Shown one piece after another: positions 32,000 through 52,929 of a stretch of DNA of 64,000 nt. A program made the translations under genes and the position numbers. Location: NCBI GenBank assembly GCA_003215335.1, contig QCKM01000002.1, positions 186,001 through 250,000 of the forward strand, read 5' to 3'. The stretch comes from Prochlorococcus sp. AG-409-P01. GTDB taxonomy: Bacteria > Cyanobacteriota > Cyanobacteriia > PCC-6307 > Cyanobiaceae. Every line of letters begins with the position of its first letter. The stretch's first letter is position 1. The notes beneath the pieces were generated by a model, which made no database searches, had not been told where the DNA came from, and was given only the letters and a program-made list of their open reading frames with translations.

Positions 32000-32476
32000 T
32001 CATGAAAACTTGCCTAGGCGTTTGAGTATATCTTTGGCTGTTTTTGTTGGGATTGGCAGTATTGAAAGGCGATTGCCCTTTCTTATGACCGGTAGTTCTT
32101 CCTGGGTGTAAATAGATCGCATCTCTTCTAGGCTTAGCATTTCACTAAAACGACCTAGGTACTTCAATTCAACACAGTCCCAACGGGGCTTTTCTTTAAG
32201 AGATTTGGGGTCGTAGTAATTCGATTTTGGATCGAATTGAGTAGGGTCGATTAAACCTAATTTAATTATTTCCATTATTCCAACTATGCCTGGCGGTTTA
32301 CAGTTTGAGTGGTAGAAAAAAGCCTTGTCACCAATGGCCATCGTTCGCATGTAATTGCGGGCTTGGTAGTTCCTAATACCATCCCAGAGAGTTGTAGATT
32401 CTTTTTTTAGTTGCGAAATACCATAAACATCTGGTTCGCTCTTCATTAGCCAGTAGCTAGGTTCCTGTTGTGCCAT
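32000..32476 (-). CDS. EVE-domain protein (PUA-like, modified-base reader family)
   Basis: 158 aa, full-length EVE domain: SYWLMKSEPDVYG, TLWDGIRNYQARNYMRTMAIGDKAFFYHS, PPGIVGIMEI and a C-terminal LPVIRKGNRLSILPI. EVE proteins share a fold with YTH and PUA domains and bind modified nucleobases in known cases. Its first twelve codons and upstream region are the apparent source of the repeat scattered through the next 30 kb. Confidence 0.92.
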   Translation of the reverse strand: MAQQEPSYWLMKSEPDVYGISQLKKESTTLWDGIRNYQARNYMRTMAIGDKAFFYHSNCKPPGIVGIMEIIKLGLIDPTQFDPKSNYYDPKSLKEKPRWDCVELKYLGRFSEMLSLEEMRSIYTQEELPVIRKGNRLSILPIPTKTAKDILKRLGKFS

Positions 32477-33126: not shown

Positions 33127-33369
33127 TTATTGAACTCCTCCGTCAACGCACCAGAAATATGTGCTGTATTCCTTTTTGTTTCTTGTAGTGGCTAATGCCC
33201 CTTCTTCCTGGCATTGGTCCATAGAGGCCATTGGCATGGAAACAGAGGACATTGAACCATATACTCCAGGCCCTCTAGAGAAAGCCAGCACTAAATGAAC
33301 AGCTGGATCGGCTGCTTGAACAGGGATGGAAAATGTCAATAAAAGTGGTGCAAGAAGTAAGCGGCGCAT
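33127..33369 (-). CDS. Small secreted Cys-containing protein (80 aa)
   Basis: Signal peptide MRRLLLAPLLLTFSIPVQA, then a short mature part with two cysteines (DQCQEEG; YFWCVDGG). Similar in size and plan to the products at 33731 and 52668 (signal peptide, a MS-TMEEC-like middle, a Cys near the C-terminus). It forms a two-gene unit with the downstream secreted protein. A truncated copy of its promoter and signal peptide lies at 41868-42040. Confidence 0.7.
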   Translation of the reverse strand: MRRLLLAPLLLTFSIPVQAADPAVHLVLAFSRGPGVYGSMSSVSMPMASMDQCQEEGALATTRNKKEYSTYFWCVDGGVQ

Positions 33370-33435
33370 GGTTGGTTCTTTTCCCCTTGTCTAGTTGTTC
33401 TAGATCAATATTTCACTTATTTGAAGTAAAAAGGA

Positions 33436-33579
33436 GTTTGAGTAAAGTTTGAGTAAATCTCCACGATTCGCCGAGAGCACTTGCTATCACTCAAATGCCT
33501 CTTTTCATTAGCCAGTAGTTAATTTCCTGTTGTGCCATGGGCTTTCAGCGATATTGCGATGTGTGGATGATGTGTGGAT
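33436..33579 (-). repeat. WLMK repeat copy 2, complete
   Basis: On the - strand: a tandem ATCCACACATC pair (33558-33579), the arm CAATATCGCTGAAAGCCC, a 15-codon micro-ORF (33491-33538) encoding MAQQEINYWLMKRGI, the arm CTCTCGGCGAATC and two tandem GTTTGAGTAAA 11-mers (33436-33457, + strand reading). The second pair is about 70 bp upstream of the gene at 33369; the first faces the + strand leader at 33664. Confidence 0.85.
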
Positions 33580-33663
33580 GGCTTAACATTCTCACCCTCA
33601 TTTCTTTATTCTATTTCAATCAAGTTTCTATTACTAATAACCAAAGAAAGGCTCGCATGTTTT

Positions 33664-33723
33664 ATGTCTGATGGAACGGCTGATCTTTACGCCAAAAGAA
33701 ATAAAGCTGCTAAGGCTGCATAA
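33664..33723 (+). CDS. Leader micro-ORF (19 aa) upstream of the secreted protein
   Basis: Encodes MSDGTADLYAKRNKAAKAA and stops 7 bp before the ATG of the next gene. The paralogous locus has the same leader (ending DLYAKRNQTAKAA, 52930-52977) in the same position. The alternative reading, an in-frame extension of the secreted gene (FTPKEIK..LHNSD), is also open in both copies, so which frame is used cannot be decided here. Confidence 0.45.
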   Translation: MSDGTADLYAKRNKAAKAA

Positions 33724-33730
33724 TTCAGAT

Positions 33731-33967
33731 ATGAAACGCTTCCTACTTCCACTAATTGCTGCTATTGCAGTACCTACAGCCGCCAACGCTGAAACCTATT
33801 GGTTAATCCTTTCAGGAACTAGGACTACTGCTGGTGCAATGTTGAAAGTTCCCATGTCGACCATGGAAGAATGCGAACTTGCAGGAAAAAAAGTTATGCA
33901 GAGCGACCACCACGCCAGAAATTATATGTGGGAGAGTATGAGATATATATGCGTCAAAGGCAAATAA
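33731..33967 (+). CDS. Small secreted Cys-containing protein (78 aa)
   Basis: Signal peptide MKRFLLPLIAAIAVPTAANA, mature start ETYWLILSG, cysteines in TMEECELAG and MRYICVKGK. It is a paralogue of the product at 52668 (MKRLLLPLLAGLALPTAANA, ESYWLLIG, RYYCVIGK), and their upstream 150 bp are nearly identical. Function unknown. Confidence 0.75.
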   Translation: MKRFLLPLIAAIAVPTAANAETYWLILSGTRTTAGAMLKVPMSTMEECELAGKKVMQSDHHARNYMWESMRYICVKGK

Positions 33968-35859: not shown

Positions 35860-35969
35860 CTAATCCCTTGACATCAATGACTTATAACTGTTCATTAGCC
35901 AGGAGCTAGGTTCCTGTTGTGCCATGGGATCTCAGCAAAAATGGGTGGTTTGAATAAAGTTTGGATAGA
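35860..35969 (-). repeat. WLMK repeat copy 4
   Basis: On the - strand: tandem 11-mers (+ strand reading GTTTGAATAAA, GTTTGGATAGA at 35948-35969), arm TTTGCTGAGATC, and a 21-codon micro-ORF (35860-35925) beginning MAQQEPSSWLMNS and ending MSRD. The right arm ATGTCAAGGGATT is the reverse complement of the left arm of other copies. Confidence 0.82.
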
Positions 35970-36080
35970 TCCTCGACCTCAGCAGGGGATTTCTATTTTT
36001 TCTATCTTGGCCTATTTGTATTGAAGTTGAAGTTGCAGTTGCTTTTGAGCCATCTCTTTTAGGGGACCTTGGGGGAGCTC
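35885..36080. repeat. Direct repeat, left copy flanking the nitrite module
   Basis: About 190 bp that recur in the same orientation at 40918-41107. It includes WLMK repeat copy 4, GACCTCAGCAGGGGATTTCT, and the last 20 or so codons of the HEAT gene. Together the two copies bracket about 5 kb holding nirA and focA. Confidence 0.85.
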
Positions 36081-36731
36081 AATCAGAAGATTTGACAGGG
36101 TTGCAAGGCTATGGGGAGTGGCTATACAACTGAGGGCAAGAAGTGCTGCACGAGCTGTTGCTTCTGATCCGTTCTTAGCAATTTCTGCAATTTGTAAATT
36201 GATGGCGGTACTATTGCGCCGTTGTAAAACCCTAATGGTTGATAACACAACTGGATCGCGAAAATCTTTTAATGGTTTCTGAACAAGATCAAGAAGAATG
36301 TAATCACTGAGTTGATGAACTTTGAATTTGAGTAATTCCAAGCCAGCTAAGACAAGGGGTTGGGATTTTTCGCTTAAGACGTTCCTAAGGAGAATGATTG
36401 GAAGTTCACCTCCCCAGCAGCTAAGTGCTTGCAGAACTGGCAGCTTGAGTTGGTTCTCTTCTTTGAGCAGCTTTAGCAACCAAGTTTTTGCCTCAGGCTG
36501 ATGACAAAGTCCTGCTGCACTAATTAACTCTGGTTGAGCCCCTGCTTGTTTGATTAGTAACTCTAAAACTGGCCAACCTTTATTACTTAGTAATCCGAGT
36601 TGCTCAGTTATCGCAAAGCGAAGGTCTGTCTGAAGATTGATTGAATAAACCTCACCCAACCAGCAAGGCTCGAGGGGAACCCTGCGGGATTGGTTGAGTT
36701 TTTCCCAGATTGAGTCTTCATGGATAGCCAT
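36012..36731 (-). CDS. HEAT-repeat protein of the nitrite assimilation cluster
   Basis: 239 aa, built of Leu/Ala-rich helical repeats (LLSNKGWPVLELLIKQAG; LPVLQALSCWGGELPIILLRNVL; ATARAALLALSCIA), the pattern of HEAT/CpcE-type proteins. Some cyanobacterial nitrite loci carry an accessory gene needed for nitrite reductase (nirB/nirX); equivalence here is a guess. It starts 9 bp after the focA stop, so it is in the same transcript. Confidence 0.7.
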   Translation of the reverse strand: MAIHEDSIWEKLNQSRRVPLEPCWLGEVYSINLQTDLRFAITEQLGLLSNKGWPVLELLIKQAGAQPELISAAGLCHQPEAKTWLLKLLKEENQLKLPVLQALSCWGGELPIILLRNVLSEKSQPLVLAGLELLKFKVHQLSDYILLDLVQKPLKDFRDPVVLSTIRVLQRRNSTAINLQIAEIAKNGSEATARAALLALSCIATPHSLATLSNLLIELPQGPLKEMAQKQLQLQLQYK

Positions 36732-36740
36732 AGATAGTCC

Positions 36741-37652
36741 TTAGCGTGCACCAAGTTCTGCGGCTAGTTCTCGTTCCAGTTTTTCATCATGAACTGTTGG
36801 CAGGACATTGGACACCTTGGTGCGATGTGTGCTGTAGAAGAGCATGCCTATAAAAACCATTCCTCCAATAATGTTGCCAACAGTAACTGGCAGGAAATTC
36901 CAAAAAATAACCTTGCTGAAGGGCACTCCAGAACCAAGAAGGGGGCCTGCTGTATGCAAAAACATGTTTACAACAATGTGCTCCATGCCCATTGTTTGGA
37001 ATGCAGTAATTGGTAGCCAACAAGCAAGAAGTTTTCCTGGAACACTTTTACTTACTAGAGCCATTGTGACTCCAAGACATACTAGCCAGTTAGCAATAAC
37101 ACCTCGTATAAATGCTAGGAAAAGTCCAGTACTTCCTAGAGACTCATACTTGGTAAGAACATTTGATTGATTTATAGATATCAGCTTTGATGCAACAACG
37201 GCCCATCCTTTACCTCCTTCAGCTGCAGATAAAGGATCAATAGTTCCTGCGCTTGTCAAACTAATTGAAAGTAAAACTGCTACAAGAAATGTGCCCAAGA
37301 AATTACCTATCCAGACCCACCCCCAATTTCTAAATGTGGCTTTCCAGGAGGATTTGCCCGCCCAAGTTGCCATAGGTAATAGAGCAAAATTTCCAGTAAC
37401 TAGCTCCATACCAAAAAGCACTATGCTTGCAAATCCAAACGGGAAAATAACTGAACCAAGGAAAGGCATCCCAGATTGAATACCTACAGTTATTGCTAGA
37501 CATGTAGCTAAGCCAAGTATTGCCCCAGAGTAAAAACCTCTTACTAGCAAGTTTTTTGTACTTACAGTAGATTTTTTTCCGCCCGCTGCAATCATTCCAT
37601 CGACTAATTCATTAGGAAGGACATAATCCATTTGTGAGTTGTTTGCATCCAT
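36741..37652 (-). CDS. focA: Formate/nitrite transporter family protein, probable nitrite channel
   Basis: 303 aa with six hydrophobic helices, and the family motifs FGMELVTGNFALLP and GMEHIVVNMF. Located between nirA and a HEAT protein, which makes nitrite the likely substrate. Confidence 0.93.
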   Translation of the reverse strand: MDANNSQMDYVLPNELVDGMIAAGGKKSTVSTKNLLVRGFYSGAILGLATCLAITVGIQSGMPFLGSVIFPFGFASIVLFGMELVTGNFALLPMATWAGKSSWKATFRNWGWVWIGNFLGTFLVAVLLSISLTSAGTIDPLSAAEGGKGWAVVASKLISINQSNVLTKYESLGSTGLFLAFIRGVIANWLVCLGVTMALVSKSVPGKLLACWLPITAFQTMGMEHIVVNMFLHTAGPLLGSGVPFSKVIFWNFLPVTVGNIIGGMVFIGMLFYSTHRTKVSNVLPTVHDEKLERELAAELGAR

Positions 37653-37699
37653 GTTTGGGAAAATGATTGTGTTGGAAGATGTTTTTTAAGTTGATTGAT

Positions 37700-37843
37700 T
37701 TATCTGCTAATGCGATTCATTAGCCTTGAAAAAGGATCTTTACTTCCGCCTTGACGATCAATGAGTGGACGGTCACTCCCAAATTCACTTAGCCAATTCA
37801 CAATGCGACTAAAGAAATCAGTTGAATTAGATTTAAATTTCAT
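37700..37843 (-). CDS. Small protein between nirA and focA (47 aa)
   Basis: Encodes MKFKSNSTDFFSRIVNWLSE and a basic remainder ending in LMNRISR. It begins 40 bp after the nirA stop on the same strand, inside the nitrite operon. Unrecognised; its position suggests an accessory role. Confidence 0.6.
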   Translation of the reverse strand: MKFKSNSTDFFSRIVNWLSEFGSDRPLIDRQGGSKDPFSRLMNRISR

Positions 37844-37883
37844 AGAGAAGTTAACAAATGATTGTGGTTTTGGTAAAAGCAGC

Positions 37884-39488
37884 TTATGGAGAACGACTGC
37901 TTTTACCTAACTGCCGAATCCAATCAATAATCTGCTTTAAAGCAATAAATTTCTCAGAGAAATTCTTGGTCTTTGGAATTGCAGAGTAATTTTCAATCAA
38001 TAATTTTTTCAATAGATTCTTTAATTCAGCAGTAGGAACTGATTTATGTATTAACTCTCCTATCTTTTGATTTGGTCCTTGCTCTCCTCCAATTGATATG
38101 TCATAAGCCTCAATCATTTTCCCATCAGCATTTCTGGCTTTTGTCCCGGTTAGGCCTATTGCTCCCATATAGGCTTGACCACAACTATTGGGACACCCTG
38201 TCCAGTGAATCTTTAGTTCTTCAGGTAAATCAATTTCTGAGTCAAGCTCTTTAGATACCTTTAGAGCCTGATCTTTAGTATTTGTCAAAGCAAAACTGCA
38301 GTAGGTATTACCTGTACATGAGACAGTCCCTGCCGCTATTGTTTTTGGGCGGAGGGGAAATTTCTTTAATAGAGGATCAGCTTTAAAACTCTCAATCTGC
38401 TTGTCTGGGATATTAACTATGATCACATTTTGATCTTCAGTAAGACGAAGTTCACTGCTCCCATATGTTGCACTTATGCTGGCTAAATCTTGAATTTCTT
38501 CTGCTGAAAGCCGACCTACTGGAATATGTAGGCCTGCATAGTTAAGACCTAACTGCTTTTGAGGATGAACTCCAAAGAAAGAACGTGGTTTTTGTGAAAA
38601 AATAGAACCAGGATCTGGAGTAAGTGTTCCAAATTTTTCTTGAACATTATCCCTGAAATTTTCTACGCCAACTTTATTTAAATAGAACCTAAATCGTCCT
38701 TTAGGCCGTTGATAACGTTCTCCATCATCGCGCCAACTAGATATAACTACCCCTGTGAAATGACATATTTCATGTGGTTTAACCCATACATTAAGAGGAA
38801 TAGCGTAATCATTTAATTGAGAAGAAAGAATCCCTCCAACCCAAACACTAAAACCAAGCTCTCCTTCTTTTATAACTGGATGGAAAATAATGTCATTGTG
38901 CAAAAGAAAGTTGTCATGTGAACCTGCTACTGCAGTGTTCCATTTTCTTGGCAAATTAGAGAATTCAGAATTTCCTTCTCCATTCTTAGTCAAGTAATTA
39001 TCCAACTCCAATGTATATGGCCTGGTATCTATAATTTCATTCGGATCGATTCCTGCTAATGGATTACCTGTGACATTTCTTGGGTTATCAAACCCTGATT
39101 GGATGGTTTCTATATCAGCATCTTTTAGACGTCTAAGAATTTCAGGTAGGTCACTAATAAGAATCCCACGGAGTTGGAGATTTTGCCTTGTAGTGATATC
39201 GCAACTTCCATCTTCTGCATAACGAGCAACAATAGATGCAATTACATTTAATTGATGTGCATTTAGTATTCCATTAGTTATTCGTAAACGGAGCATAAAT
39301 TTTCCTGGTGTTTTAGGCCGCCAGAACATTCCATACCATTTCAAGCGAAGCTCTAAGTCGATTTTGTCCATTTTCTCCCAACCAATCTTGGCCAATTCTT
39401 CTATTTCTCTGCCCAATAGGAGCCCATCTTTCAGGGCCTTATTCTTTTCTATTTTATTTAATTTCTTCCCTTCTAAATACGGTTTCAT
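37884..39488 (-). CDS. nirA: Ferredoxin-nitrite reductase
   Basis: Six-electron reduction of nitrite to ammonium using siroheme and a 4Fe-4S cluster. The sirohaem/cluster motif TGCPNSCGQAYMGAIGLTGTK and the upstream GTVSCTGNTYC supply the cysteine ligands; the substrate-site region TTRQNLQLRGI is present. 534 aa, full length. No nitrate reductase gene is in the window, fitting a nitrite-only user or a distant narB. Confidence 0.97.
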   Translation of the reverse strand: MKPYLEGKKLNKIEKNKALKDGLLLGREIEELAKIGWEKMDKIDLELRLKWYGMFWRPKTPGKFMLRLRITNGILNAHQLNVIASIVARYAEDGSCDITTRQNLQLRGILISDLPEILRRLKDADIETIQSGFDNPRNVTGNPLAGIDPNEIIDTRPYTLELDNYLTKNGEGNSEFSNLPRKWNTAVAGSHDNFLLHNDIIFHPVIKEGELGFSVWVGGILSSQLNDYAIPLNVWVKPHEICHFTGVVISSWRDDGERYQRPKGRFRFYLNKVGVENFRDNVQEKFGTLTPDPGSIFSQKPRSFFGVHPQKQLGLNYAGLHIPVGRLSAEEIQDLASISATYGSSELRLTEDQNVIIVNIPDKQIESFKADPLLKKFPLRPKTIAAGTVSCTGNTYCSFALTNTKDQALKVSKELDSEIDLPEELKIHWTGCPNSCGQAYMGAIGLTGTKARNADGKMIEAYDISIGGEQGPNQKIGELIHKSVPTAELKNLLKKLLIENYSAIPKTKNFSEKFIALKQIIDWIRQLGKSSRSP

Positions 39489-39864
39489 GGTTCAGATGTT
39501 TAATGCTATTGATTTTGTGTAAGAAAAGAGAATAATAAATTGAGGAATATTTCAGGCGTATAAATTTTTTGAGGCTAGGACTCTATTCATCTCAAAGGAC
39601 TGAAGTTCATCTACTATTAATGCATTTAAGAGCTCAATCTATATGTATCAGATTAAACAAAAATGGAAATTTCTGGAATTTAGAATTTAGTGTACTTAGA
39701 TACAGAATTATTACAGCCAAGATGAGTTTTGATTGATTGACTCATCTAAAGCATTGCTAATCTGCTATTTCTAGAGCAGATTAGAAGATTAGGCTATGTA
39801 TATTTAGATACAAGAAAATAGTCATTTAGTTCTTTTATCTCTCTTCAGAACCTAAATCGAAAAG
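39489..39864. promoter_or_regulatory. nirA upstream region with a possible NtcA site
   Basis: AT-rich 376-bp region. On the - strand GTT-N8-TAC at 39658-39645 is one mismatch from the NtcA consensus GTA-N8-TAC, about 157 bp before the nirA ATG; TA-rich -10 candidates follow. Nitrogen control is expected for nirA, but the site itself is weak. Confidence 0.4.
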
Positions 39865-40095
39865 CTAATACTGACGACCCACTTCGCCAAACCAACGTAT
39901 TGAACCTTCCAATAGCATTTTCCAAACTTTCTTCATTGCAGCAATGTCTCTATCTAGTCCATTATTAAAATTACTGGGGTGGCTTAAATTATTTATTTGC
40001 TCAGAAGGTCTTGTTGTTAATGTTCTTCTTGATTTTGACCTATAGAGGCGGCTGACCATTCTAAGCCCTTTTCCTGAAAATAAATTTATGACCAT
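39865..40095 (-). CDS. Hypothetical basic protein (76 aa)
   Basis: Arg/Lys-rich N-terminus (MVSRLYRSKSRRTLTTRPSEQ after an internal Met at residue 13, a likely start) and a C-terminal amphipathic KKVWKMLLEGSIRWFGEVGRQY. No domain recognised. Confidence 0.5.
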   Translation of the reverse strand: MVINLFSGKGLRMVSRLYRSKSRRTLTTRPSEQINNLSHPSNFNNGLDRDIAAMKKVWKMLLEGSIRWFGEVGRQY

Positions 40096-40256
40096 TAGAG
40101 CAGAGACCCATATTATTCATATGTTGCAGTTGCTACAAAAAACAATATTCTATCAAAGTATCCCTTTCTTAAATAAGGTTAGCCCTTGATTGAAAAGTTA
40201 GATTTAGATCATTGGCTTGTGTTTAGAATTGTTTGACTTGGAGGGACCCATTGTAA

Positions 40257-40673
40257 TTATTCTTTCGAGAAATAATCTAAATCAGCTTCTAGCATGCTTT
40301 GATTATCTTCATTTGAGCAGCATCTGTACATAAGATTAATAATACGTTGTGGATCAATTTTAAGAGCTGCAACCTCATTCCATAGTTTGCGAGTCAGTTC
40401 ATCATTCGCGAGATTAAATTGTGCATTAATAATATCCCTTGCTAACGAGAAGACTTTTTTATTAGCCTCAGAGCTGTAAGGCTTATTAGTATTATTAGTA
40501 GATCCTTTTGACAAGTATTTGCTGCCACGGTAGATCAAATTATTTTGAACCTTAGATATTAATTGTCTTTTTTGATTGTAAATGCTTCGCCTGTACTTTA
40601 ATTGGACAGATTTTTTATACACAATTTCTTTGTGTTGGGTATATTTGTTGCCACGATAAAGAAGTTTTTCCAT
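40257..40673 (-). CDS. DUF4278-like protein with two YRGxxY motifs
   Basis: 138 aa. MEKLLYRGNKYTQH at the N-terminus and NNLIYRGSKYLSKG near residue 46 match the repeated YRG-x-x-Y signature of the small cyanobacterial DUF4278 family; the C-terminal half is helical and acidic. Function unknown. Confidence 0.65.
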   Translation of the reverse strand: MEKLLYRGNKYTQHKEIVYKKSVQLKYRRSIYNQKRQLISKVQNNLIYRGSKYLSKGSTNNTNKPYSSEANKKVFSLARDIINAQFNLANDELTRKLWNEVAALKIDPQRIINLMYRCCSNEDNQSMLEADLDYFSKE

Positions 40674-40790
40674 TGTTTAGAGATTGAAGATGGTCAAAGA
40701 ACATTTCTTGGACTTGATTAAGAGGCTCTTTGAGGAATAAGTCTGAATGCGCTTTAACCATATGCCCTTTTTATTGATAGCTCCTATGGA

Positions 40791-40856
40791 CTAAAGATGT
40801 AGTTCATAAGGGCACAAAAAATGGCTTTTTGTCTTTTCTTCCTCCATTTTCACCAT
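40791..40856 (-). CDS. Leader micro-ORF at the outer end of WLMK repeat copy 5
   Basis: 21 codons starting MVKMEEEKTKS directly after the repeat sequence TAGAGAA. The same start (MVKM/MVKI) follows the repeat at 45861 and 51270, so the repeat carries its own translation start into the cassette. Confidence 0.35.
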   Translation of the reverse strand: MVKMEEEKTKSHFLCPYELHL

Positions 40857-41005
40857 TTCTCTAGTTTGGATAGAAATTCCTAATTCGCTGAGATCGGTTG
40901 ATATCACCTAAAGGGAACTTTCCATTGGCCAGTAGCTAGGTTCCTGTTAAGCCAGGGAATCTCAGCGAAAATGGGTGGTTTGAATAAAGTTTTGATAGAT
41001 CCTCG
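40854..41005 (-). repeat. WLMK repeat copy 5, complete palindrome
   Basis: On the - strand the left arm TTCGCTGAGAT and right arm ATCTCAGCGAA are exact inverted partners around a core GCTACTGGCCAATGGAAAG. The ATG of the micro-ORF is lost here (CCCTGGCTTAA), so this copy is non-coding but the palindrome is kept. 11-mer boxes lie on both outer sides. Confidence 0.82.
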
Positions 41006-41107
41006 ACCTCAGCAGGGGATTTCTGTTTTTTCTATCTTGGCCTATTTATATTGAAGTTTCAGTTGCTTTTGGGCCCATCTCTTTTAAGGGACCTTGGGGG
41101 AGCTCAT
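40918..41107. repeat. Direct repeat, right copy flanking the nitrite module
   Basis: Same sequence and orientation as 35885-36080, including a fragment of the 3' end of the HEAT gene (TTGGGGGAGCTCA region) with no gene attached. Recombination between the two copies would delete or circularise the nirA-focA segment. Confidence 0.85.
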
Positions 41108-41867: not shown

Positions 41868-42040
41868 TTTGAGTGATAGCAAGTGCTCTCGGCGAATCGT
41901 GGAGATTTACTCAAACTTTACTCAGACTCCTTTTTACTTCAAATAAGTGGGATATTGACCTAGAACAACTAGACAAGGGAAAAACAACCAATCATGCGCT
42001 GCTTACTTCTTGCCCCACTTTTATTGACATTTTCCATCAA
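41868..42040 (+). pseudogene. Truncated copy of the secreted-protein promoter and signal peptide
   Basis: About 170 bp nearly identical to the reverse complement of 33325-33490: repeat arm CTCTCGGCGAATC, tandem TTTACTCAAAC boxes, the 5' leader, and the first 15 codons (from ATG at 41994) of the gene at 33369. Similarity stops inside the signal peptide. The right half of a WLMK repeat is included (copy 6). Confidence 0.85.
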
Positions 42041-43337: not shown

Positions 43338-43861
43338 CATGTGTATATTTTTAGAAGCTTCTTGCTCTTAATCGCCTGGGGCCAAGTGTCTAGGTGTAAG
43401 GCTGATAAAACTCAATTAAGGGCACCTAAAACGATGCATCAGAGTGTCATTAATGCTAGGAAAGCATCTACGACCAGCCCACTTATAAAATGAGAATGTT
43501 GGAGCAGGGACCAGAAGTCAATTCGCTTCTATTTGATACTCAGGTGGAGTGTCGATCATTAATCCCTCCGTGTGTCAGTGAAATAATTTTGTATCAACCG
43601 TTACATTATTGCAATCCGCCTTAATGCTTATTCCTTCTCCAATCACTGCTAAGCAAAAACAAATAAAGACTGGTTTTGGCGTATACGCCAGAATGAGAGC
43701 AGGTTGGAAGATTCTCTAGTCCCTAAAAGCGAAGGAAATTATTGAGGAAGTTTGGAATAAGAAGAGATTCGTAAATGGGTTTAGTTATCCATCGTTGAAG
43801 CATGAACGCTCATGCTGAGCTTCTGTGTGCAAATCTCAAAGATATCGGCAAGGAATTCTGT
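43338..43861. other. Gene-poor stretch
   Basis: No convincing gene. A 31-codon + strand frame (starts at about 43624, contains TGFGVYARMRAGWKI) is the only protein-like piece. Otherwise mixed sequence, probably decayed. Confidence 0.35.
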
Positions 43862-44026
43862 CTACAATTCGTAGAGCTTACAGGTGGATTTTGTGGGATG
43901 AAGTTTGCATTCCTGTTCCCAAAAGTCGCCCTGCCTTTCATTAGGTAACTGATAAGAGAAATCGTGAATACGGTCAATATCTCTAAGTGGGTTCGCAACA
44001 ACAGTAAAAGGAGTTCTTAGTTTCAT
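43862..44026 (-). CDS. CP12-like miniprotein A (54 aa)
   Basis: MKLRTPFTVVANPLRDIDRI, then LPNERQGDFWEQECKLHP and TKSTCKLYEL. It has the CP12 C-terminal pattern C-x3-P-x4-C-x2-Y without the N-terminal CP12 half. AGGAGG upstream of the ATG. It diverges from the coiled-coil gene at 44235; the same divergent pair occurs inverted at 62273-62939. Confidence 0.7.
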   Translation of the reverse strand: MKLRTPFTVVANPLRDIDRIHDFSYQLPNERQGDFWEQECKLHPTKSTCKLYEL

Positions 44027-44234
44027 AATCCTCCTATTCGGTTACTTCCTTTTTAACACATCTATAAGAATTAGATATAGGGTTTTTACTCAAGTATTTA
44101 GGCTTTACGGTTCTCACTGACTAAAGTGTTATTAACCGAAACAGGTGATATTTACCGAATCAATTTCTTCGGTTTACATCATTACTTTATCTGAAAAGTT
44201 AGGACAAAGTAAGAGTGTTCCCGCACAGAACATC

Positions 44235-44528
44235 ATGTACACATCTTTATTCGATACTTTCTTTGCCGACTCTTTCTTCTCACCTACCAGGACTGTTTAT
44301 GTTGTCTCTGATAGCCAACTAGAAGAGATCAAGCGTAAGCAGCGGCAAGAGGAGCTCGACAATCTTGAGGCTTCTCGCAAGAGACTAGAAGAAACTTATC
44401 AGTCACGCATCAAAATCATTGATGAACGAGAGCATGAGCTTCAAGAAGAGCTAAAAGCTCTAGCGCCAGCAGAAAAAAAAACCGAACTCTCTGCTGAAGA
44501 ACCTGAAAAATGCGCTGTCAAGGCTTAA
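44235..44528 (+). CDS. Coiled-coil protein, copy 1 of an inverted duplicate (97 aa)
   Basis: Starts MYTSLFDTFFADSFFSPTRT, then VYVVSDSQLEEIKRKQRQEE and a continuous charged helix, ending EEPEKCAVKA. The central coiled coil is identical to that of the gene at 62273-62566. I use the ATG at 44235 since the upstream frame differs between copies. Unrecognised. Confidence 0.72.
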   Translation: MYTSLFDTFFADSFFSPTRTVYVVSDSQLEEIKRKQRQEELDNLEASRKRLEETYQSRIKIIDEREHELQEELKALAPAEKKTELSAEEPEKCAVKA

Positions 44529-44572
44529 TCCTTTCGACTCACTGAGTGATGGGGATCACTAACGACGTATTC

Positions 44573-44596
44573 AAGGGGCCTTAATGGCTCCTTTTT
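44573..44596 (+). terminator. Terminator downstream of the coiled-coil gene
   Basis: AAGGGGCC / GGCTCCTT stem with a TTAAT loop followed by T5. A second hairpin, AGTGAT-GGGG-ATCACT (44545-44560), lies just before it and is conserved at the other copy (about 62232-62260). Confidence 0.7.
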
Positions 44597-45457: not shown

Positions 45458-45517
45458 TGCTCTTCACTGGCTAATGAACAGTTAAAAGCTATTGTTACCA
45501 AGGGGTCTGAGGCATTA
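45458..45517 (+). repeat. WLMK repeat copy 7, core and right arm
   Basis: CACTGGCTAATGAACAGTTA, then TTGTTACCAAGGGGTCTGAG, the same arm type as copies 4 and 13. The left part is degraded. Confidence 0.6.
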
Positions 45518-45537
45518 ACCAAAATCCATTCGAACTT

Positions 45538-45717
45538 TTAAGACGCCATTAATTGAGCGTTAAGTAGACGCTTGGCCTTCTCCTTTCTTGCAGCAGAATT
45601 GGCATTTAAAGCTGACTGGTCGTGAAATTTACTTCCATGGGAAGTGGCAATTAACTGAGCCTTGTGAATGCGATCTGCTCGTTTGATGTGCGAGCGAATT
45701 AATGGGAGAGTGTTCAT
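45538..45717 (-). CDS. Small basic protein (59 aa)
   Basis: MNTLPLIRSHIKRADRIHKA, then NANSAARKEKAKRLLNAQLM. GGAGG lies upstream of the ATG at 45717. Highly basic and helical; possibly nucleic-acid binding. Unrecognised. Confidence 0.55.
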   Translation of the reverse strand: MNTLPLIRSHIKRADRIHKAQLIATSHGSKFHDQSALNANSAARKEKAKRLLNAQLMAS

Positions 45718-45839
45718 TACGTTCCTCCGAAGTGACAGCCCCGTTCCCTGCTGCCAAAACATGCATCCCAGCAAAGGGACGAACGTATAGAAATAGTAGC
45801 AACGGATACCAAATATTGGTTATGAAAAATCACCTATCA

Positions 45840-45893
45840 AACTTTATGCAAACTAGAGAAATGGTCAAAATAGAAGAAGTAGCGGCAGAATGA
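45840..45893 (+). repeat. WLMK repeat copy 8, outer end with leader ORF
   Basis: CAAACTTTATGCAAACTAGA box followed by GAAATGG. The ATG at 45861 opens a 10-codon leader (MVKIEEVAAE) whose stop overlaps the ATG at 45890. Confidence 0.6.
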
Positions 45894-46186
45894 AAGACCT
45901 TCCACCTCACTTCCTTCGGGAAAAAGAAAAAGAAGTTGTCTTCCATATTCCTGGTGCATTCCCAACACCGATGGTTGCTGAACTAATGCAGGCATATTTC
46001 CCTGAATACAAGACTATTCTTATTCGCTGTGCTGAAACCTTTTATCGGATGCGTGAGAGTGCAAGGGTATGGCTGTTGATTGGAAAGAATCAGATGGAGC
46101 AGAGTGGCAGGAAGAGTTCAAGCAACTCAAAGGGACTGTCTCTATTCATGACCTCAAATTGCTGGATGAAGGAGCAACAACCATGA
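45890..46186 (+). CDS. Hypothetical protein, overlapped by the next frame
   Basis: First 60 residues look real (MKDLPPHFLREKEKEVVFHI, FPTPMVAELMQAYFPEY). The last 39 (Ser/Lys-rich) overlap the next gene by 118 bp in another frame. Either a frameshift has split one gene, or the two truly overlap. Coupled to the repeat-borne leader ORF through ATGA. Confidence 0.5.
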   Translation: MKDLPPHFLREKEKEVVFHIPGAFPTPMVAELMQAYFPEYKTILIRCAETFYRMRESARVWLLIGKNQMEQSGRKSSSNSKGLSLFMTSNCWMKEQQP

Positions 46187-46275
46187 AAGATGCATGGCGA
46201 TTAGGAGCTCTTCATGCTGAATACAAACGACTGAAGAGAAACCAACCACCAGGCCTGCCAGATATAAAGCGATGA
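46069..46275 (+). CDS. Hypothetical protein (68 aa)
   Basis: MAVDWKESDGAEWQEEFKQL, then MKDAWRLGALHAEYKRLKRN. Charged helical protein. Its stop overlaps the next ATG (ATGA). Could be the C-terminal half of a frameshifted gene starting at 45890. Confidence 0.55.
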   Translation: MAVDWKESDGAEWQEEFKQLKGTVSIHDLKLLDEGATTMKDAWRLGALHAEYKRLKRNQPPGLPDIKR

Positions 46276-46388
46276 ACTATTCCGATGCGCTGTTCATATT
46301 TGCTCCCACCATTGGATTGGTGATTTTCTTTGTGGTGATGAATATCGTGATTACAAGGGTCTTCACCAATGACCGAAACAGAAGATGA
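46272..46388 (+). CDS. Single-span membrane microprotein (38 aa)
   Basis: MNYSDALFIFAPTIGLVIFF, VVMNIVITRVF and a basic tail. Overlaps the genes on both sides by ATGA, so it is embedded in a coupled operon. Confidence 0.6.
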   Translation: MNYSDALFIFAPTIGLVIFFVVMNIVITRVFTNDRNRR

Positions 46389-46594
46389 TTGATGCCTACA
46401 CCTTTGAGCAATGCAAGAAAGATAAGGAGATTAGACAACTCAAAATCAAGAACTTGGAGCATGCCATCTATCAGTCAGAAGCGATGATCGCTGAATCGCA
46501 AATGGATGGAGATGCCTTGACCTTTTTAAGGAGGAAGGTTGCCGACTCCAGGCAAGATCTAGAAGTTCTTTATTTAATTAATGATCAGGAGTAA
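46385..46594 (+). CDS. Coiled-coil hypothetical protein (69 aa)
   Basis: MIDAYTFEQCKKDKEIRQLK and further charged helix. Translationally coupled to the membrane microprotein. Unrecognised. Confidence 0.55.
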   Translation: MIDAYTFEQCKKDKEIRQLKIKNLEHAIYQSEAMIAESQMDGDALTFLRRKVADSRQDLEVLYLINDQE

Positions 46595-46648
46595 ATGAGA
46601 CCCTGCTAGAAAAGACAAGGGGACTCAATTGATAATGAGGTTTTGACT

Positions 46649-46804
46649 ATGGATTGGGACACAGCAAGAGCACACTGCAAAGAGAAAGACTGGAAGTGGA
46701 GTCTGGATTTGATCGACAAGTATCAGAAGGAGATGGAAGAACTAAAAGACGAGAATGTGAAACTAAAGCGTCAGTTAGTCCTTCGCTCTCAACTGAAAAA
46801 GTAA
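46649..46804 (+). CDS. Small coiled-coil protein (51 aa)
   Basis: MDWDTARAHCKEKDWKWSLD, then EMEELKDENVKLKRQL, a short leucine-zipper-like helix. The stop and next start share bases (TAATG). Confidence 0.6.
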   Translation: MDWDTARAHCKEKDWKWSLDLIDKYQKEMEELKDENVKLKRQLVLRSQLKK

Positions 46805-47136
46805 TGCCAGTCTTGATAATTGGTTGGAGCGTGTACGACAAACTCCCAGATGAAGAGCAAAAGGAGTTTGCGTTAGTAGAGCGTTATAGGACTGATTATT
46901 TCTATGAGTGCTATGAGTATGAAAATGCCAAGGGAAATAAAAATTATGAGTGGAGTGATCGATGCTTTAACAGTCAGGAAGAGTTATTGGACTTCTTTGG
47001 TTATGAAATGATCGAAGACTTAAATTCAGATGCCGCGTATGCAAGACGCGTAGAGACCTTCACTGATGAAGATAAAAAGAGATGGATGAAATTAAGTGAT
47101 GCTGGAAATCAAATCAAAGTAATGGGAGCAAACTAA
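46804..47136 (+). CDS. Hypothetical acidic protein (110 aa)
   Basis: MPVLIIGWSVYDKLPDEEQK, then CFNSQEELLDFFGYEMIEDL. Aromatic and acidic, with no membrane segment. I start at the ATG at 46804 overlapping the preceding stop. No domain recognised. Confidence 0.6.
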   Translation: MPVLIIGWSVYDKLPDEEQKEFALVERYRTDYFYECYEYENAKGNKNYEWSDRCFNSQEELLDFFGYEMIEDLNSDAAYARRVETFTDEDKKRWMKLSDAGNQIKVMGAN

Positions 47137-47286
47137 ATGCTTGCCACCATCAGACGAGTACACGACTCAACGCTTGATAGGTATAGAAGGTTGGGTCTGA
47201 ATAATTCCACGATTGCCTGGTTGCTCTTTGCAGAAGGAATATTTGTGGTTCTAGCTGGCAAAACAGTTCTTGGATTCATTGCATAA
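47137..47286 (+). CDS. Single-span membrane microprotein (49 aa)
   Basis: Basic N-terminus MLATIRRVHDSTLDRYRRLG, then STIAWLLFAEGIFVVLAG. Starts directly after the previous stop; last gene of the coupled cassette 45861-47286. Confidence 0.6.
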   Translation: MLATIRRVHDSTLDRYRRLGLNNSTIAWLLFAEGIFVVLAGKTVLGFIA

Positions 47287-47349
47287 AAAAATCACTGGCA
47301 CTTGGATACAGTAAAGAAAAGAGAAGGGACTTTGAGGTTTCATTCGAAC

Positions 47350-47475
47350 CGACCATTATCGCCAAGATTACAGACCATGACTAGAATTAACTACTGGCTA
47401 ATGAAAAGTTCCCTTTAGGTGATAACAACCGATCTCAGCGAATCAGGAATTTCTATTCAAACTTTATGCAAACTT
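47350..47475 (+). repeat. WLMK repeat copy 9, complete
   Basis: Left arm CATTATCGCCAAGATTAC, micro-ORF 47377-47418 encoding MTRINYWLMKSSL, right arm GATCTCAGCGAATCAGGAAT, and boxes TTCAAACTTTATGCAAAC. Confidence 0.85.
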
Positions 47476-47502
47476 GCAATGCAATAGAAATAAGCATCTC
47501 AC

Positions 47503-47898
47503 TTATTTGATAGGACCTTTTATTAGATCCACAATATTTGGCCAAGCATCTAGCAATTCTTTAAGAGCTTTTCTGTTTGGTGTATACAAGATGCAGGAAA
47601 AAGCACTGATCAGATACCAGAAGAACCACCAACGACTTGTCGCGTAAACAGAAACAAATGAGAAGAGAAAGCTACCTAAGAACAGAAGAAATAGTGATCG
47701 ATTAAAAATTTCAAGAGGCGATTTCCTTAATCTGCGAAATGGTTTCTTCTCAGATCTTCTTTTTTCTTCTTCCTCGTTCTCTTCATTTCTTCTTCTCGAA
47801 TCTGCCTGATCCAAAGCATCACTCGCCTTGACAATCTCTGATAGTTTTTCCTCGCTGAAATTCACGAAGGGATCAGAGCCCTCTTCCTTAGAAGCCAT
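47503..47898 (-). CDS. Two-span membrane protein with acidic/basic N-terminus (131 aa)
   Basis: Highly charged first 60 residues (NEENEEEEKRRSEKKPFRRL), then SLFLLFLGSFLFSFVSVYAT and WWFFWYLISAFSCILY, and a short helical tail. No family recognised. Confidence 0.6.
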   Translation of the reverse strand: MASKEEGSDPFVNFSEEKLSEIVKASDALDQADSRRRNEENEEEEKRRSEKKPFRRLRKSPLEIFNRSLFLLFLGSFLFSFVSVYATSRWWFFWYLISAFSCILYTPNRKALKELLDAWPNIVDLIKGPIK

Positions 47899-48011
47899 AA
47901 GTTTTAAACGGAATGAGCATAATCTGCGGCTTTTCCCTCCATGAACAGACTATCCAATCAAGAGCCTCAGAAAACAGCTAGAAAGGAAGTGCACAGGAAA
48001 TCAGAAATTCA

Positions 48012-48200
48012 GTGCTAGCTGACCCCTATTCGGTTCTGCTTCTAGTTGGACTCATCTTCATGGGTACACAGCTTTATTTGCTGCTCTCGATCGTCAAGAA
48101 CAACAAAGGTGAAAGATTTTTCTTTGATCGAACTCAGATGTATGCGATTCAACTACGGATAGAGAAGCTCTTCGGGCAGATCCATACGAGGAAGGATTAA
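48012..48200 (+). CDS. Single-span membrane protein (62 aa)
   Basis: GTG start; MLADPYSVLLLVGLIFMGTQ with LYLLLSIV forms a membrane helix, followed by a basic cytoplasmic tail ending TRKD. Unrecognised. Confidence 0.5.
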   Translation: MLADPYSVLLLVGLIFMGTQLYLLLSIVKNNKGERFFFDRTQMYAIQLRIEKLFGQIHTRKD

Positions 48201-48207
48201 AGCCTGA

Positions 48208-48387
48208 ATGAGATACCTCATTACGAGACAGGATGGAGAGAAGGACGACATCACCTCTTAAAGCTTTGACAACTACAACGATGCCTATGCCTACGACTTA
48301 ATTGAAGAGATCTGCGGAGATATGTGCTGCTCAGATGCTGACTACGAAGATCGTCCTTACTACGAGATCATTGAGGTAAAAGATTGA
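48208..48387 (+). pseudogene. Nonsense-interrupted copy of the gene at 61679
   Basis: Codes MRYLITRQDGEKDDITS, then TAA (48259-48261), then SFDNYNDAYAYDLIEE and DMCCSDADYEDRPYY. The intact paralogue has CAA at the stop position, so a single C-to-T change ended the frame. Confidence 0.8.
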
Positions 48388-48484
48388 GCCATTTGGTCGA
48401 TAATGGACTTGGACAAGATTCTTCCAAAATCCGCTTGATACTCTTTGTTTCAGGTGAAGTTACTCTAATCCTTTAAATCATAGT

Positions 48485-48600
48485 TATACCAAGCAAATGA
48501 GCGAAATTAACTACTGGCTAATGAAAAGTTCCCTTTAGGTGATAACAACCGATCTCAGCGAATCAGGAATTTCTATCCAAACTTTATCCAAACTAGAGAA
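48485..48600 (+). repeat. WLMK repeat copy 10
   Basis: Micro-ORF 48497-48538 encoding MSEINYWLMKSSL, right arm GATCTCAGCGAATCAGGAAT and tandem TATCCAAACTT/TATCCAAAC boxes, ending TAGAGAAATGG where a 8-codon leader (MEEEKTRA) starts. From the core rightwards it is nearly identical to copy 9. Confidence 0.88.
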
Positions 48601-48692
48601 ATGGAAGAAGAGAAAACGAGGGCTTAATGATGAAAATGGTTATCGTTATCACCATCTGATATTTTTATAGAGCGATTGTCATTGTCCAAAGA

Positions 48693-49478
48693 ATGAGCCA
48701 AACATGGCTGATCTCGGGTTCACCAGGCTGCGGCAAAACCAGCTGGATACTCAAAACAATGCAAGGCCATCAAGGTAAATGCGGATATTTGCGACTAGAT
48801 GGCTATGCCTCTAAGGGACTAGAGCAGGTATCTGACTCAGGAATCGATAAGGCATTTCTCAAGGATCAATTCCCTCAACTAATAGATCTATCGGATTCCC
48901 ATCATGCCTCCAGATCTCAACAAGGCGACCTGCTCACATTGATTGAGCTTCCCCAGTTTCAGGCTCCTCAGCATGCAGGCCTAACGGATATGGATCCTCG
49001 CGTCAAAAATCAGCTTGAAACCTTGCAACTTCATCCTGATAGGCATCTCCACTTTGGTCGGGATCCTGAATTGCCAAACAAAGACACATTGGAATTCAAA
49101 AAACTTGAATCCTTCAGCCTCAGTCTTAATACCAGCGTCTGGGATCCACCCAGCCTGAATACCTTTTGGTTCGAGCTAGTGAACGGAGCATATGGCGACG
49201 TCTATCGAGCTAAGGGCTTGATGAACTTGCCAGATGGGCGCTCTATTTTCTTCAACTGGATCGTGAGCCAAGAAAGCTCACAGTTCCTTCCACTTCAAGA
49301 AATTTCAGATCCAAATGGGAGACCTCGCAGCTTGTCTGAGCTTGTTGTCCAAGGAAAACATCTTGATTGCCTACGCATTCAATCAACGATCGACCTCTGC
49401 CTACTAAACGATGCCGTACTTGAGATGCATCAAATGCCTCTTAGGGATCGACAAAAAGAAGCTCTTCCCTCAACCTAA
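48693..49478 (+). CDS. CobW/COG0523-like P-loop protein
   Basis: P-loop at the extreme N-terminus, LISGSPGCGKTSW, and a C-terminal segment YGDVYRAKGLMNLPDGRSIF resembling the CobW C-terminal domain. The metal-binding CxCC motif and a clear GTPase NKxD are not seen, so it is a reduced member. It starts a three-gene unit with two phosphoesterases, and looks less AT-rich than the rest of the island. Confidence 0.7.
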   Translation: MSQTWLISGSPGCGKTSWILKTMQGHQGKCGYLRLDGYASKGLEQVSDSGIDKAFLKDQFPQLIDLSDSHHASRSQQGDLLTLIELPQFQAPQHAGLTDMDPRVKNQLETLQLHPDRHLHFGRDPELPNKDTLEFKKLESFSLSLNTSVWDPPSLNTFWFELVNGAYGDVYRAKGLMNLPDGRSIFFNWIVSQESSQFLPLQEISDPNGRPRSLSELVVQGKHLDCLRIQSTIDLCLLNDAVLEMHQMPLRDRQKEALPST

Positions 49479-49483
49479 TCGCC

Positions 49484-50299
49484 ATGCATCACGCAATTAT
49501 CTCCTGCCTACACGCCAACCTCCCTGCAGTAGAAGCTGTCTTGAATGACATTGATAAGCAGGGGATTGACACCATTACCTGTCTTGGTGATCTAGTTGGC
49601 TATGGCCCCCAACCCAACGAAGTGGTTGAGCTGATACGGAAGCGTGGCATCGCGACCTGCCAGGGCTGCTGGGATGAAGATATCATCGATGGTCTTAATG
49701 CCTGCGAGTGCAGCTATCCTTCTCAGCTAGCAGAAAGACGCGGGCACCTGGCCCACCAATGGACAGATGATCAGTTAACGGACGAAAACAAATGTTTTTT
49801 AGCCAGCCTCCCAACATCATTACGTCGTGATCGACTCCTCTTTGTGCATGGAAGTCCAAACAGTCAGCATGAGTATCTTCTGCCAGACATGGATGCATTT
49901 GCGGCTCTCGAGCGAGTAGAAACAGCGGGGGCCGATATTCTGTTTTGCGGGCATACTCACCAGCCTTATGTACGTGAATTGAGAGATGGATCTATTCGTG
50001 TGCGTTTACAGAGTGCCGAGCATGGCAATGATCAGGGCGAAGAACTAACCCTGCCGATGCGCAAAATCGTCAATGCTGGATCAGTGGGTGAGCCACGTCA
50101 TGGAAGTACAAATGCCACCTATGTAATTCACAACGACGCAACTGACGAAGTTGAGATAAAAGAGGTGGCCTATGACGTTGCTCGAACGTGTCAAGCGATT
50201 ATCGAGGCAGGGCTACCGAAAGTCTTCGCATGGCGACTGAGTCATGGTTTTGAATTCGCCGAGCAGGCCGAAGATGCAAGTCATGTGTGTGAACGATGA
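49484..50299 (+). CDS. Calcineurin-like metallophosphoesterase with altered metal site
   Basis: 271 aa, YfcE/MJ0936-like layout: IISCLHANLPAVEAV, ITCLGDLVGYGP, GCWDED, LLFVHGSP and ILFCGHTHQPY. The first motif normally reads DxH but is CLH here, and GNHD is GCWD, so some metal ligands are missing. Five bases follow the CobW-like stop; the next gene overlaps by ATGA. Confidence 0.8.
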   Translation: MHHAIISCLHANLPAVEAVLNDIDKQGIDTITCLGDLVGYGPQPNEVVELIRKRGIATCQGCWDEDIIDGLNACECSYPSQLAERRGHLAHQWTDDQLTDENKCFLASLPTSLRRDRLLFVHGSPNSQHEYLLPDMDAFAALERVETAGADILFCGHTHQPYVRELRDGSIRVRLQSAEHGNDQGEELTLPMRKIVNAGSVGEPRHGSTNATYVIHNDATDEVEIKEVAYDVARTCQAIIEAGLPKVFAWRLSHGFEFAEQAEDASHVCER

Positions 50300-51009
50300 T
50301 TGAAAGATGGGCACTAGTAAGTGGTCTACGCGGAGATCTCGAGACCTATGAGCTAATTCAACGGGATCTAAAGAAGACTCGTGGAGTTACAGCCTTATTT
50401 GTCCTTGGAGACCTAGTCGGGCCCGAACGCAACTGTGACGCACTGTTGGATCGACTAAGAAATCCCCATCGCGGCGATTTAAAACCAGATTGCATCTATG
50501 GCTGGTGGGAAGAGCAACTACTTGCAGAGCGTGGGTTTCGTGGTGAACGCAAAGCTGATGCTCTGCGGCTCAGCCAAGGTGAAGACACAGTCAGCGCACT
50601 GCTGAATACGGTTAATCCTTCTCACCTGAAATGGCTGGCATCACTGCAATTTGGCTTCATTGAACTTGACTGTGCACTCATCCATGGGAGCTCTTCAGAC
50701 GTGGGTGACAACCTCACAGCTGAAACATCTCCACTGATCCTCCTTGATCGACTCACCCGTCTCAATGTGAACAGACTGTTCACAGCGCGCAGTACTAAAC
50801 AATTTCATCTTGAACTGACTGGAGGAGGGATCAATTCACAAGTAAAGGATCTGAACGGTAAACGTGAACAACAACAGGAAGTTCCCAAGCGAAGCGTGAT
50901 TGGAATTGGAGCTGGCTTGAATTACACCCTTTATGACATTGGTAGCGATAAAACGCACTTCCTTACCGCCGGCAGCAAAACAAATCCCAAAGGGAAGGGT
51001 TTCGCATAA
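50296..51009 (+). CDS. Degenerate metallophosphoesterase-like protein
   Basis: 237 aa. Follows the same plan as its neighbour (ALVSGLRGDLETYELI, LFVLGDLVGPERN, CIYGWWEEQ, ALIHGSSSD), but the DxH, GNHD and GHTH metal motifs are replaced. Likely a tandem duplicate that became a non-catalytic partner. Coupled to the upstream gene through ATGA. Confidence 0.7.
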   Translation: MIERWALVSGLRGDLETYELIQRDLKKTRGVTALFVLGDLVGPERNCDALLDRLRNPHRGDLKPDCIYGWWEEQLLAERGFRGERKADALRLSQGEDTVSALLNTVNPSHLKWLASLQFGFIELDCALIHGSSSDVGDNLTAETSPLILLDRLTRLNVNRLFTARSTKQFHLELTGGGINSQVKDLNGKREQQQEVPKRSVIGIGAGLNYTLYDIGSDKTHFLTAGSKTNPKGKGFA

Positions 51010-51149
51010 ACCTCGTCATTATTTTGAGAGAGAGATTGATAGCCACAAATATTGCTCAGTAGGATCAAAAGCTCTATGAATAGAGAAGAAAACGTAGGCA
51101 TTTGATGGGTTTCAACGCCCAAAAAAGCCTATAAACAACAACTTTTATC

Positions 51150-51269
51150 CCCCGAATCCCTTGCTATGGCTGATATCCAGTGGTGGCTAATGAAAAGTTC
51201 CTTTTGAGTGATAGCACGCGATTTCAGCGAATCAGGAATTTCTATCCAAACTTTATCCAAACTAGAGAA
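51150..51269 (+). repeat. WLMK repeat copy 11
   Basis: Left arm GAATCCCTTGCTATGG (the other arm type), micro-ORF 51166-51207 encoding MADIQWWLMKSSF, right arm GATTTCAGCGAATCAGGAAT, tandem TATCCAAACTT/TATCCAAAC boxes, then TAGAGAA and the next start. Confidence 0.87.
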
Positions 51270-51392
51270 ATGGTGAAAATGGGAGAAGAAAAGCCTCTTG
51301 CGAATAAAGAAGAGAACAAAGAAAAGGAGGAGAACTCTCTACTGAATTATGAGTACGACGAAGATGACGATGGCGTCGACTGGGAGACCTGA
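51270..51392 (+). CDS. Small acidic protein (40 aa) started by the repeat
   Basis: MVKMGEEKPLANKEENKEKE, then NSLLNYEYDEDDDGVDWET. The homologue at 61866-61979 has KEKNRDSLLTYEYEQNAG and MET at its end and also directly follows a WLMK repeat. The conserved C-terminal half supports it being a real gene. Confidence 0.6.
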   Translation: MVKMGEEKPLANKEENKEKEENSLLNYEYDEDDDGVDWET

Positions 51393-51522
51393 AAGAATTA
51401 TAAGTACTCCTACGTTTAATTAAAATTAAACCCATATAGTTCATATTCAATGTTTATTTTTACATATATCCTGATTTATTTCTCTATAGATCAATACAGA
51501 AAAATATTTGTCATTGATCATC

Positions 51523-51927
51523 TTACATCGCAATATTAACTCCTTCCTTAGTGACTATTTCAACTACTCTCTGCATATCGTCAAGAGAACTTGAATTTGC
51601 TTCCAAGCTTGTAAATACTGATTCGACGCCTCCTGGCTGTGCAACCATTACATACCTAGTGTTCTTCTGTTTAGATAGTGGAGCATGAATTGTTCCAGCA
51701 GGGACATCAATTGAACGCCCAGCCGAAATAATTGTACTTACGCCATTTAAATTAAGGTCTAATTCACCTTCAAGCACAACATAAGTCTCATCCCAATCAT
51801 GAGAATGAGGTGGTTGACCTACTCCTTCTGGGGTCTCAAATTCTAAGAAACTATATTTACCATTCGTATCAGTAGAAATTAGTCTTAGAGTTACTTTGTC
51901 TCCTAATACTTCAATTGTTGTTGCCAT
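51523..51927 (-). CDS. Cupin-domain protein
   Basis: 134-aa single cupin: motif 1 PPHSHDWDETYVVLEGELDL supplies HxH and Glu, and motif 2 DVPAGTIHAPL the final His. Small cupins bind a metal and act as isomerases, dioxygenases or sensors; no substrate can be inferred. Confidence 0.85.
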   Translation of the reverse strand: MATTIEVLGDKVTLRLISTDTNGKYSFLEFETPEGVGQPPHSHDWDETYVVLEGELDLNLNGVSTIISAGRSIDVPAGTIHAPLSKQKNTRYVMVAQPGGVESVFTSLEANSSSLDDMQRVVEIVTKEGVNIAM

Positions 51928-51984
51928 AATCCTGCAAGAAAATTGAGTTCATTTTATACGCATGGATGTAAAAAGAGTTTCTCG

Positions 51985-52045
51985 TATTAGCTAATGAAGA
52001 CTTCTCATTGAGTGACATCAACGAATCTCAGCCAAAGCTGGTTGA
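51985..52045 (+). repeat. WLMK repeat copy 12, diverged
   Basis: ATTAGCTAATGAAGACTTC, then TGAGTGACATCAACGAATCT and CAGCC: core and right arm only, clearly decayed. Confidence 0.55.
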
Positions 52046-52167
52046 GGTGCCGCAAAAGATAATGCAAGAAAAGCAAATAACAATCGCATAGGTTGTACCA
52101 AATCACTGAAGTATGTCCCAACTATGTCCTAACAGCTAACAAAGGCTAGAAGCGGTGCATGATTAGC

Positions 52168-52665: not shown

Positions 52666-52667
52666 GA

Positions 52668-52922: not shown

Positions 52923-52929
52923 ATCTGAA

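Follow-up and report, generated by a model that had tools for sequence, protein, structure and literature searches.

The nitrite assimilation module of Prochlorococcus sp. AG-409-P01 is, by sequence comparison, one cassette in a long cassette array, and its boundaries lie at copies of a short core sequence. Probably the array is anchored in an EVE-domain gene, and recombination at the core adds, removes and re-orders its cassettes, an exchange that would be the work of a dedicated site-specific recombinase. The window referred to below is the whole stretch of 64,000 nt analysed; its features are given in Table 1.

Table 1. Coordinates of the array anchor, the nitrite cassette and the core sites in the window.
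Feature	Position	Strand	Remarks
EVE-domain gene, array anchor	32000–32476	−	PF01878, E 7e-53; core in YWLMKS codons 32439–32458
Second core site, right-half type C	33501–33520	−	0 mismatches over 17-nt core
Left repeat copy	35886–36081	−	HEAT 3′ end and core site (core 35888–35907); downstream end of nitrite cassette
HEAT-repeat gene	36012–36731	−	HEAT_2, E 1.5e-4, below curated cut-off; adjoins focA in all carriers
focA, formate/nitrite transporter family	36741–37652	−	PF01226, E 7e-63
nirA, ferredoxin-nitrite reductase	37884–39488	−	PF01077, PF03460
Small ORF of nitrite cassette	39865–40095	−	Place conserved in carriers
DUF4278 gene, first in nitrite cassette	40257–40673	−	PF14105, E 2.5e-8; place conserved in carriers
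Right repeat copy	40916–41106	−	Core 40918–40937, right-half type A; upstream end of nitrite cassette; preceded by HEAT remnant 41042–41106
Core site, opposite orientation	45462–45481	+	2 mismatches over 17-nt core
Core site, opposite orientation	47389–47408	+	0 mismatches
Core site, opposite orientation	48509–48528	+	Start of cassette 48504–51199
Core site, opposite orientation	51178–51197	+	End of cassette 48504–51199
Core site, opposite orientation	53133–53152	+	0 mismatches
Decayed core site	60331–60350	−	3 mismatches
Decayed core site	62050–62069	−	3 mismatches

The genes of the module all lie on the minus strand in the order DUF4278, small ORF, nirA, focA, HEAT gene. The published cassette is focA-nirA-nirX (PMC6370341), and the HEAT gene is probably nirX, judging from its place beside focA. 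The first-pass annotation had placed the HEAT gene, focA, a small protein and nirA between two same-orientation copies of about 190 bp, each with a WLMK stretch and the HEAT gene 3′ end. This arrangement is confirmed, with the DUF4278 gene inside as well. The two same-strand copies show 88.8% identity over 197 aligned columns (E = 2e-67). In both, the WLMK-coding stretch corresponds to the first codons of the EVE-domain gene, and both include the HEAT gene 3′ end, from 36012 in the left copy and as a 65-nt remnant in the right.

The pair is not alone. Used as a query against the own genome, the left copy gives ten matches, every one on this contig, and the WLMK part of approximately 80 nt has at least 10 copies on the contig in both orientations. 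Self-comparison of the window shows repeat copies spread over 32.4–62 kb, also in both orientations. The pair is two members of a large family, and the HEAT tail alone is special to it. Contrary to what the first-pass annotation expected of other nirA carriers, the 65-nt HEAT tail of the right copy is found upstream of nirA in none of the eight whose upstream flank is available. A one-base insertion puts the tail out of frame. The tail resembles the copy in G051 (0.91) no less than it does the left one, which makes it unlikely that the right repeat arose by recent duplication of the left. The tail would most likely be a remnant of a second nitrite cassette.

At the centre of every repeat copy is a core of approximately 20 nt, AACTACTGGCTAATGAAAAG, which corresponds to the YWLMKS codons near the EVE gene start. 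With up to three mismatches allowed, a 17-nt core is found 40 times when the window is taken together with its extension and eleven related loci, and 0 times in shuffled sequence. An alignment of 91 copies from 16 arrays or loci shows about 25 highly conserved core positions, most at 80–100%, but the EVE start codon is poorly conserved among the same copies. Both flanks display paired direct repeats 11 bp apart, at about 30–65 nt to the left and about 55–90 nt to the right of the core start. Lag-11 matching in these arms reaches 0.42 and 0.46, compared with 0.26 for control stretches; on the two sides, 58% and 56% of copies have an 8-mer arm repeat, compared with 3–4% in controls. The unit itself is variable (TTCAAAC, TTCCAAC, TTCGAAC, TTCTAAC, TTCACAC, ATACTAGC), yet the two units within one arm match each other. 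The lag-11 signal was replicated at 47 sites outside the first set. The first set also shows a clear inverted repeat with its centre about 11 nt inside the core (0.39, compared with about 0.25); in the second set this signal is weak (0.31). By analogy, paired 11-bp repeats on both flanks resemble recombinase attachment sites. A search for an RNA family at the repeats yields no Rfam match, and no attC-like fold is found, DNA folding z-scores at four sites being 1.15, −1.72, 0.03 and 0.32.

The two flanks of the core have separate lines of inheritance and assort independently. Left-half and right-half identities across the core are uncorrelated (rho 0.02), but inner and outer parts within one half correlate (0.24 and 0.27 in the first set). 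In the second set the left-right value is again 0.02, left-left is 0.61 and right-right is weak, 0.07. The EVE gene itself gives an example of 5′ exchange, as judged from aligned loci: L025 and L026 have EVE genes near-identical to that of L027, but the promoter and first codons differ as far as the core, and the remainder is the same. The genus of these three loci carries a core variant, GGTTGATG, and an extra site upstream of EVE in G028 has the same variant.

On the non-array side of the EVE gene the gpmI-dnaK-glk-p31587-EVE synteny is conserved, and core sites lie upstream of the gene, 75 of 79 in the EVE orientation. Of 400 family genomes, 138 show the core pattern; most of these belong to Prochlorococcus-like genera with small genomes, and the reversed pattern is almost absent. 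Named relatives are Prochlorococcus single-cell genomes, e.g. AG-363-N20 and AG-409-B13. Ends of shared segments fall within 100 bp of a core in 91 of 371 cases, against 21.7 ± 4.5 for shifted sites, and not one of 1000 shifts reached the observed count; alignment thus places cassette boundaries at the cores. One solitary core site, L099:6468 (G051:C1:71467), is remote from the EVE array; it has a DnaB-like gene nearby and tyrosine recombinase genes at a distance of 9–27 kb.

The following mechanism would account for these arrangements. The array would be anchored in the 5′ end of the conserved EVE-domain gene, with a core of approximately 20–25 bp derived from the first codons of that gene. 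Each cassette boundary would consist of a site of about 140 bp, made up of the core, the paired 11-bp repeats on both sides and the weaker inverted repeat. Recombination at the core, presumably driven by the dedicated recombinase, would let cassettes be gained, lost and re-ordered, and they may pass through an excised circle. A cassette landing beside EVE would supply a new promoter and start codon, and because the adjacent new cassette does so, the EVE gene would stay intact. In the window, recombination between the cores of the left and right copies would remove a 5.03-kb nitrite cassette.

The nitrite cassette spreads horizontally, since NirA of the own genome (G000) is 93–94% identical to that of G030 or G051 where gpmI is 72–76%, and FocA shows 97.7–99.7% aa identity in the named carriers. 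NirA of this type (83–94%) is found in 12 other genomes of 11 genera, mostly near the listed core sites. A segment of approximately 5.0 kb is common to the carriers at 85–95% nucleotide identity, and in many carrier pairs it ends within a few nucleotides of the cores. At L021:13516–13617 an EVE pseudogene fragment is situated directly past the HEAT gene, as if a nitrite cassette had once adjoined an EVE gene. One viral contig has focA at 82% and is without a core site; a phage or viral carrier of the core site was sought in INPHARED and IMG/VR and gave no match.

Presence and absence of nirA can be followed within one genus. G064 has the nirA cassette in its array, and G010 and G092, both 99–100% complete, are without it. 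The 1,515-bp transporter cassette before the nirA cassette in G064 (916199–917714) is 99% identical in G092 (102514–104029), where it is directly followed by EVE, but identity just outside its cores is 30% and 25%; the rest of the chromosome is about 76–78% identical between the two genomes. Behind the nirA cassette of G064 comes a cassette (from 922266) whose counterpart in G010 (from 1425797) matches it at 95% from the core onwards; the sequences ahead of it are unrelated. The crossover is confined to the short core, with 99% identity inside against 25–30% outside the cores and with the halves independent. The first-pass annotation had proposed a look for single fused junctions in nirA-lacking relatives. 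Single junctions at the same kind of site are indeed present, but the neighbours differ beyond the core, which points to cassette exchange rather than simple deletion. Alignments support clean loss or gain of the nitrite cassette by exchange at the core, not by the 190-bp pair. Related genomes are unlike each other in many of their cassettes, so that none offers a strictly isogenic empty site; this counts against the explanation by core recombination, as do the weak right-half correlation and the weak inverted repeat of the second set and the failure to link a recombinase to the sites.

The annotation had further proposed that recombination between the two copies deletes the module cleanly, a simple route to patchy nitrite use. 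Part of this stands: direct repeats do bound the module, so that clean loss or exchange is possible, and clean loss or gain is supported. The general boundary, however, is the EVE-derived core and not the 190-bp pair; horizontal gain contributes as well, and part of the patchiness comes from a more distant nirA which several genomes carry outside the array. As a general mechanism, loss by recombination of dedicated 190-bp direct repeats flanking the module is contradicted. The pair exists and could recombine in this strain, but the right HEAT tail is missing in the eight other carriers and the rest of the right copy recurs many times, so that this reading has very little probability. Even less probable is a reading of the repeats as regulatory leaders (a promoter, an RNA or the short peptide MTEINYWLMK...) that were copied along with the genes under their control. 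In its favour, every copy has coding capacity for a short peptide and includes part of the EVE upstream region, but the start codon is poorly conserved whereas most core positions are highly conserved, outside the EVE gene too, the halves are exchanged at the core, and the repeats match no RNA family.

The main rival is plain homologous recombination in the core, whether of RecA type or by microhomology, acting on dispersed copies of the EVE start, with the core as the best-conserved stretch refreshed from EVE. The core is in fact the longest sequence that all copies have in common, none of the recombinases could be linked to the core sites, and the left and right copies in the window share 190 bp at 89%. 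Recombination rates in Prochlorococcus are reported to be high (PMC6370341), which is also in its favour. Yet the paired 11-bp repeats keep a fixed distance from the core even on the side that is not EVE-descended, identity at chance level right outside the approximately 20-nt core leaves RecA little homology, and site orientation is near-uniform. Homologous recombination is thus judged unlikely, though well ahead of the pair and leader readings, and recombination at the core by a dedicated enzyme is preferred.

The core-plus-arms layout suggests that this enzyme is most likely a tyrosine recombinase acting in trans. The own genome has the universal 392-aa tyrosine recombinase beside cobO. A 418-aa tyrosine recombinase, L087:13784–15040 (G000:C1), missed by the PF00589 genome search, is located close to trxB and near two core sites (10503 and 11870), whose right halves resemble EVE about 15 nt further; G000 C1 would be the other end of the same island. 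This enzyme was rejected as the one recombinase: no close relative is found in G030 or G064, both array-bearing, where the universal tyrosine recombinase of approximately 390 aa is the only one detected, and recombinases near core sites elsewhere belong to three clades. A home-made profile finds no tyrosine recombinase near the EVE end of arrays, and most arrays examined are without any recombinase. A serine resolvase-type gene (24728–25408, minus strand, PF00239), 7 kb outside the EVE gene, has relatives in some array-bearing genomes. It was also rejected as the recombinase, with relatives undetected in several such genomes, e.g. G010, G038 and G092. A more specific picture is put forward tentatively, and may well prove wrong: an integron-like picocyanobacterial system with a two-armed, EVE-born site, a host tyrosine recombinase acting in trans (e.g. 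the universal one of about 390 aa, which is the sole one detected in some complete genomes with arrays) and metabolic cassettes moving between lineages.

Like integrons, the array is a row of cassettes split by recombination sites, with near-uniform orientation and a single anchor. Unlike integrons, it has no attC-like fold and no integrase at the anchor, its two-armed site comes from a gene start, and a cassette often holds several genes. SXT is an island that targets the 5′ end of prfC. Islands in the dusA 5′ end (PMC4482086) are similar in that the 5′ end of a conserved gene is the target and the gene is kept usable. The dusA and prfC islands carry their own integrase, in contrast to the multi-cassette EVE array, where most of the genomes examined have no integrase of the array's own. 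Closest to the array is the additive type of flexible genomic island, in which tRNA ends are repeated (PMC10872708), e.g. fGI-2 of Methylophilaceae with its recurring last 20 bp of tRNA-Lys. As in such islands, insertions recur at a single chromosomal position, leave target fragments in a row and lengthen the island, and in the EVE array, too, repeated fragments of one target site bound successive insertions. Unlike them, the EVE array targets the 5′ end of a protein-coding gene and has a repeated site of about 140 bp with arms on both sides, and cassettes exchanged between lineages are cut at the core. Tycheposons, which PMC10872708 refers to, share with the arrays the organisms, nitrogen-related cargo and, putatively, tyrosine recombinases. 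Tycheposons are described at tRNA genes; neither the window nor any other array region that was scanned contains a tRNA gene. Most EVE arrays examined hold no recombinase. The literature searched on the EVE integration site, on Prochlorococcus integrons or cassettes and on tycheposons gives no account of such a system; since it does not extend to the original paper on tycheposons or to most subscription titles, novelty is unproven.

Earlier work explains patchy nitrate and nitrite assimilation in Prochlorococcus chiefly by vertical descent together with loss and homologous recombination, and treats non-homologous acquisition as rare (PMC6370341). A single nitrite cassette has passed from lineage to lineage via a defined site, which gives a testable mechanism for this patchiness. 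More generally, movable cassettes joined at one short EVE-derived sequence would explain traits coming and going between ocean strains. The core sequence is a handle for listing cassettes in single-cell genomes and metagenomes, and the core-site system would offer a natural test system for a recombinase of a phototroph group that ranks among the most abundant.

The window is the main exception in orientation among the arrays, with the five sites at 45462–53152 opposite to EVE. Cassette 48504–51199, in this region, is common to other arrays at 94–97%. Inverted duplications, 43818–44596 with 62205–62983 (83%) and 33325–33495 with 41868–42038 (95%), are situated around the inverted core sites; together with the five opposite sites they suggest an inverted block. 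A further segment duplicated in opposite orientation (33501–33805 and 52848–53152, 85%) has a core site at its end, and the small proteins encoded by its two copies are related and begin with a signal-peptide-like stretch. A Glutamine-II riboswitch aptamer (45734–45788, minus strand; 35.3 bits, above the gathering score) lies within the array, close to the inverted core site at 45462–45481. A stand-alone DnaB_C-type helicase gene at 54325–55257 (minus strand) is of a kind recurrent in arrays, and one copy, G000:C1:2036–2962, is 97% identical to one in G072, which belongs to another genus.
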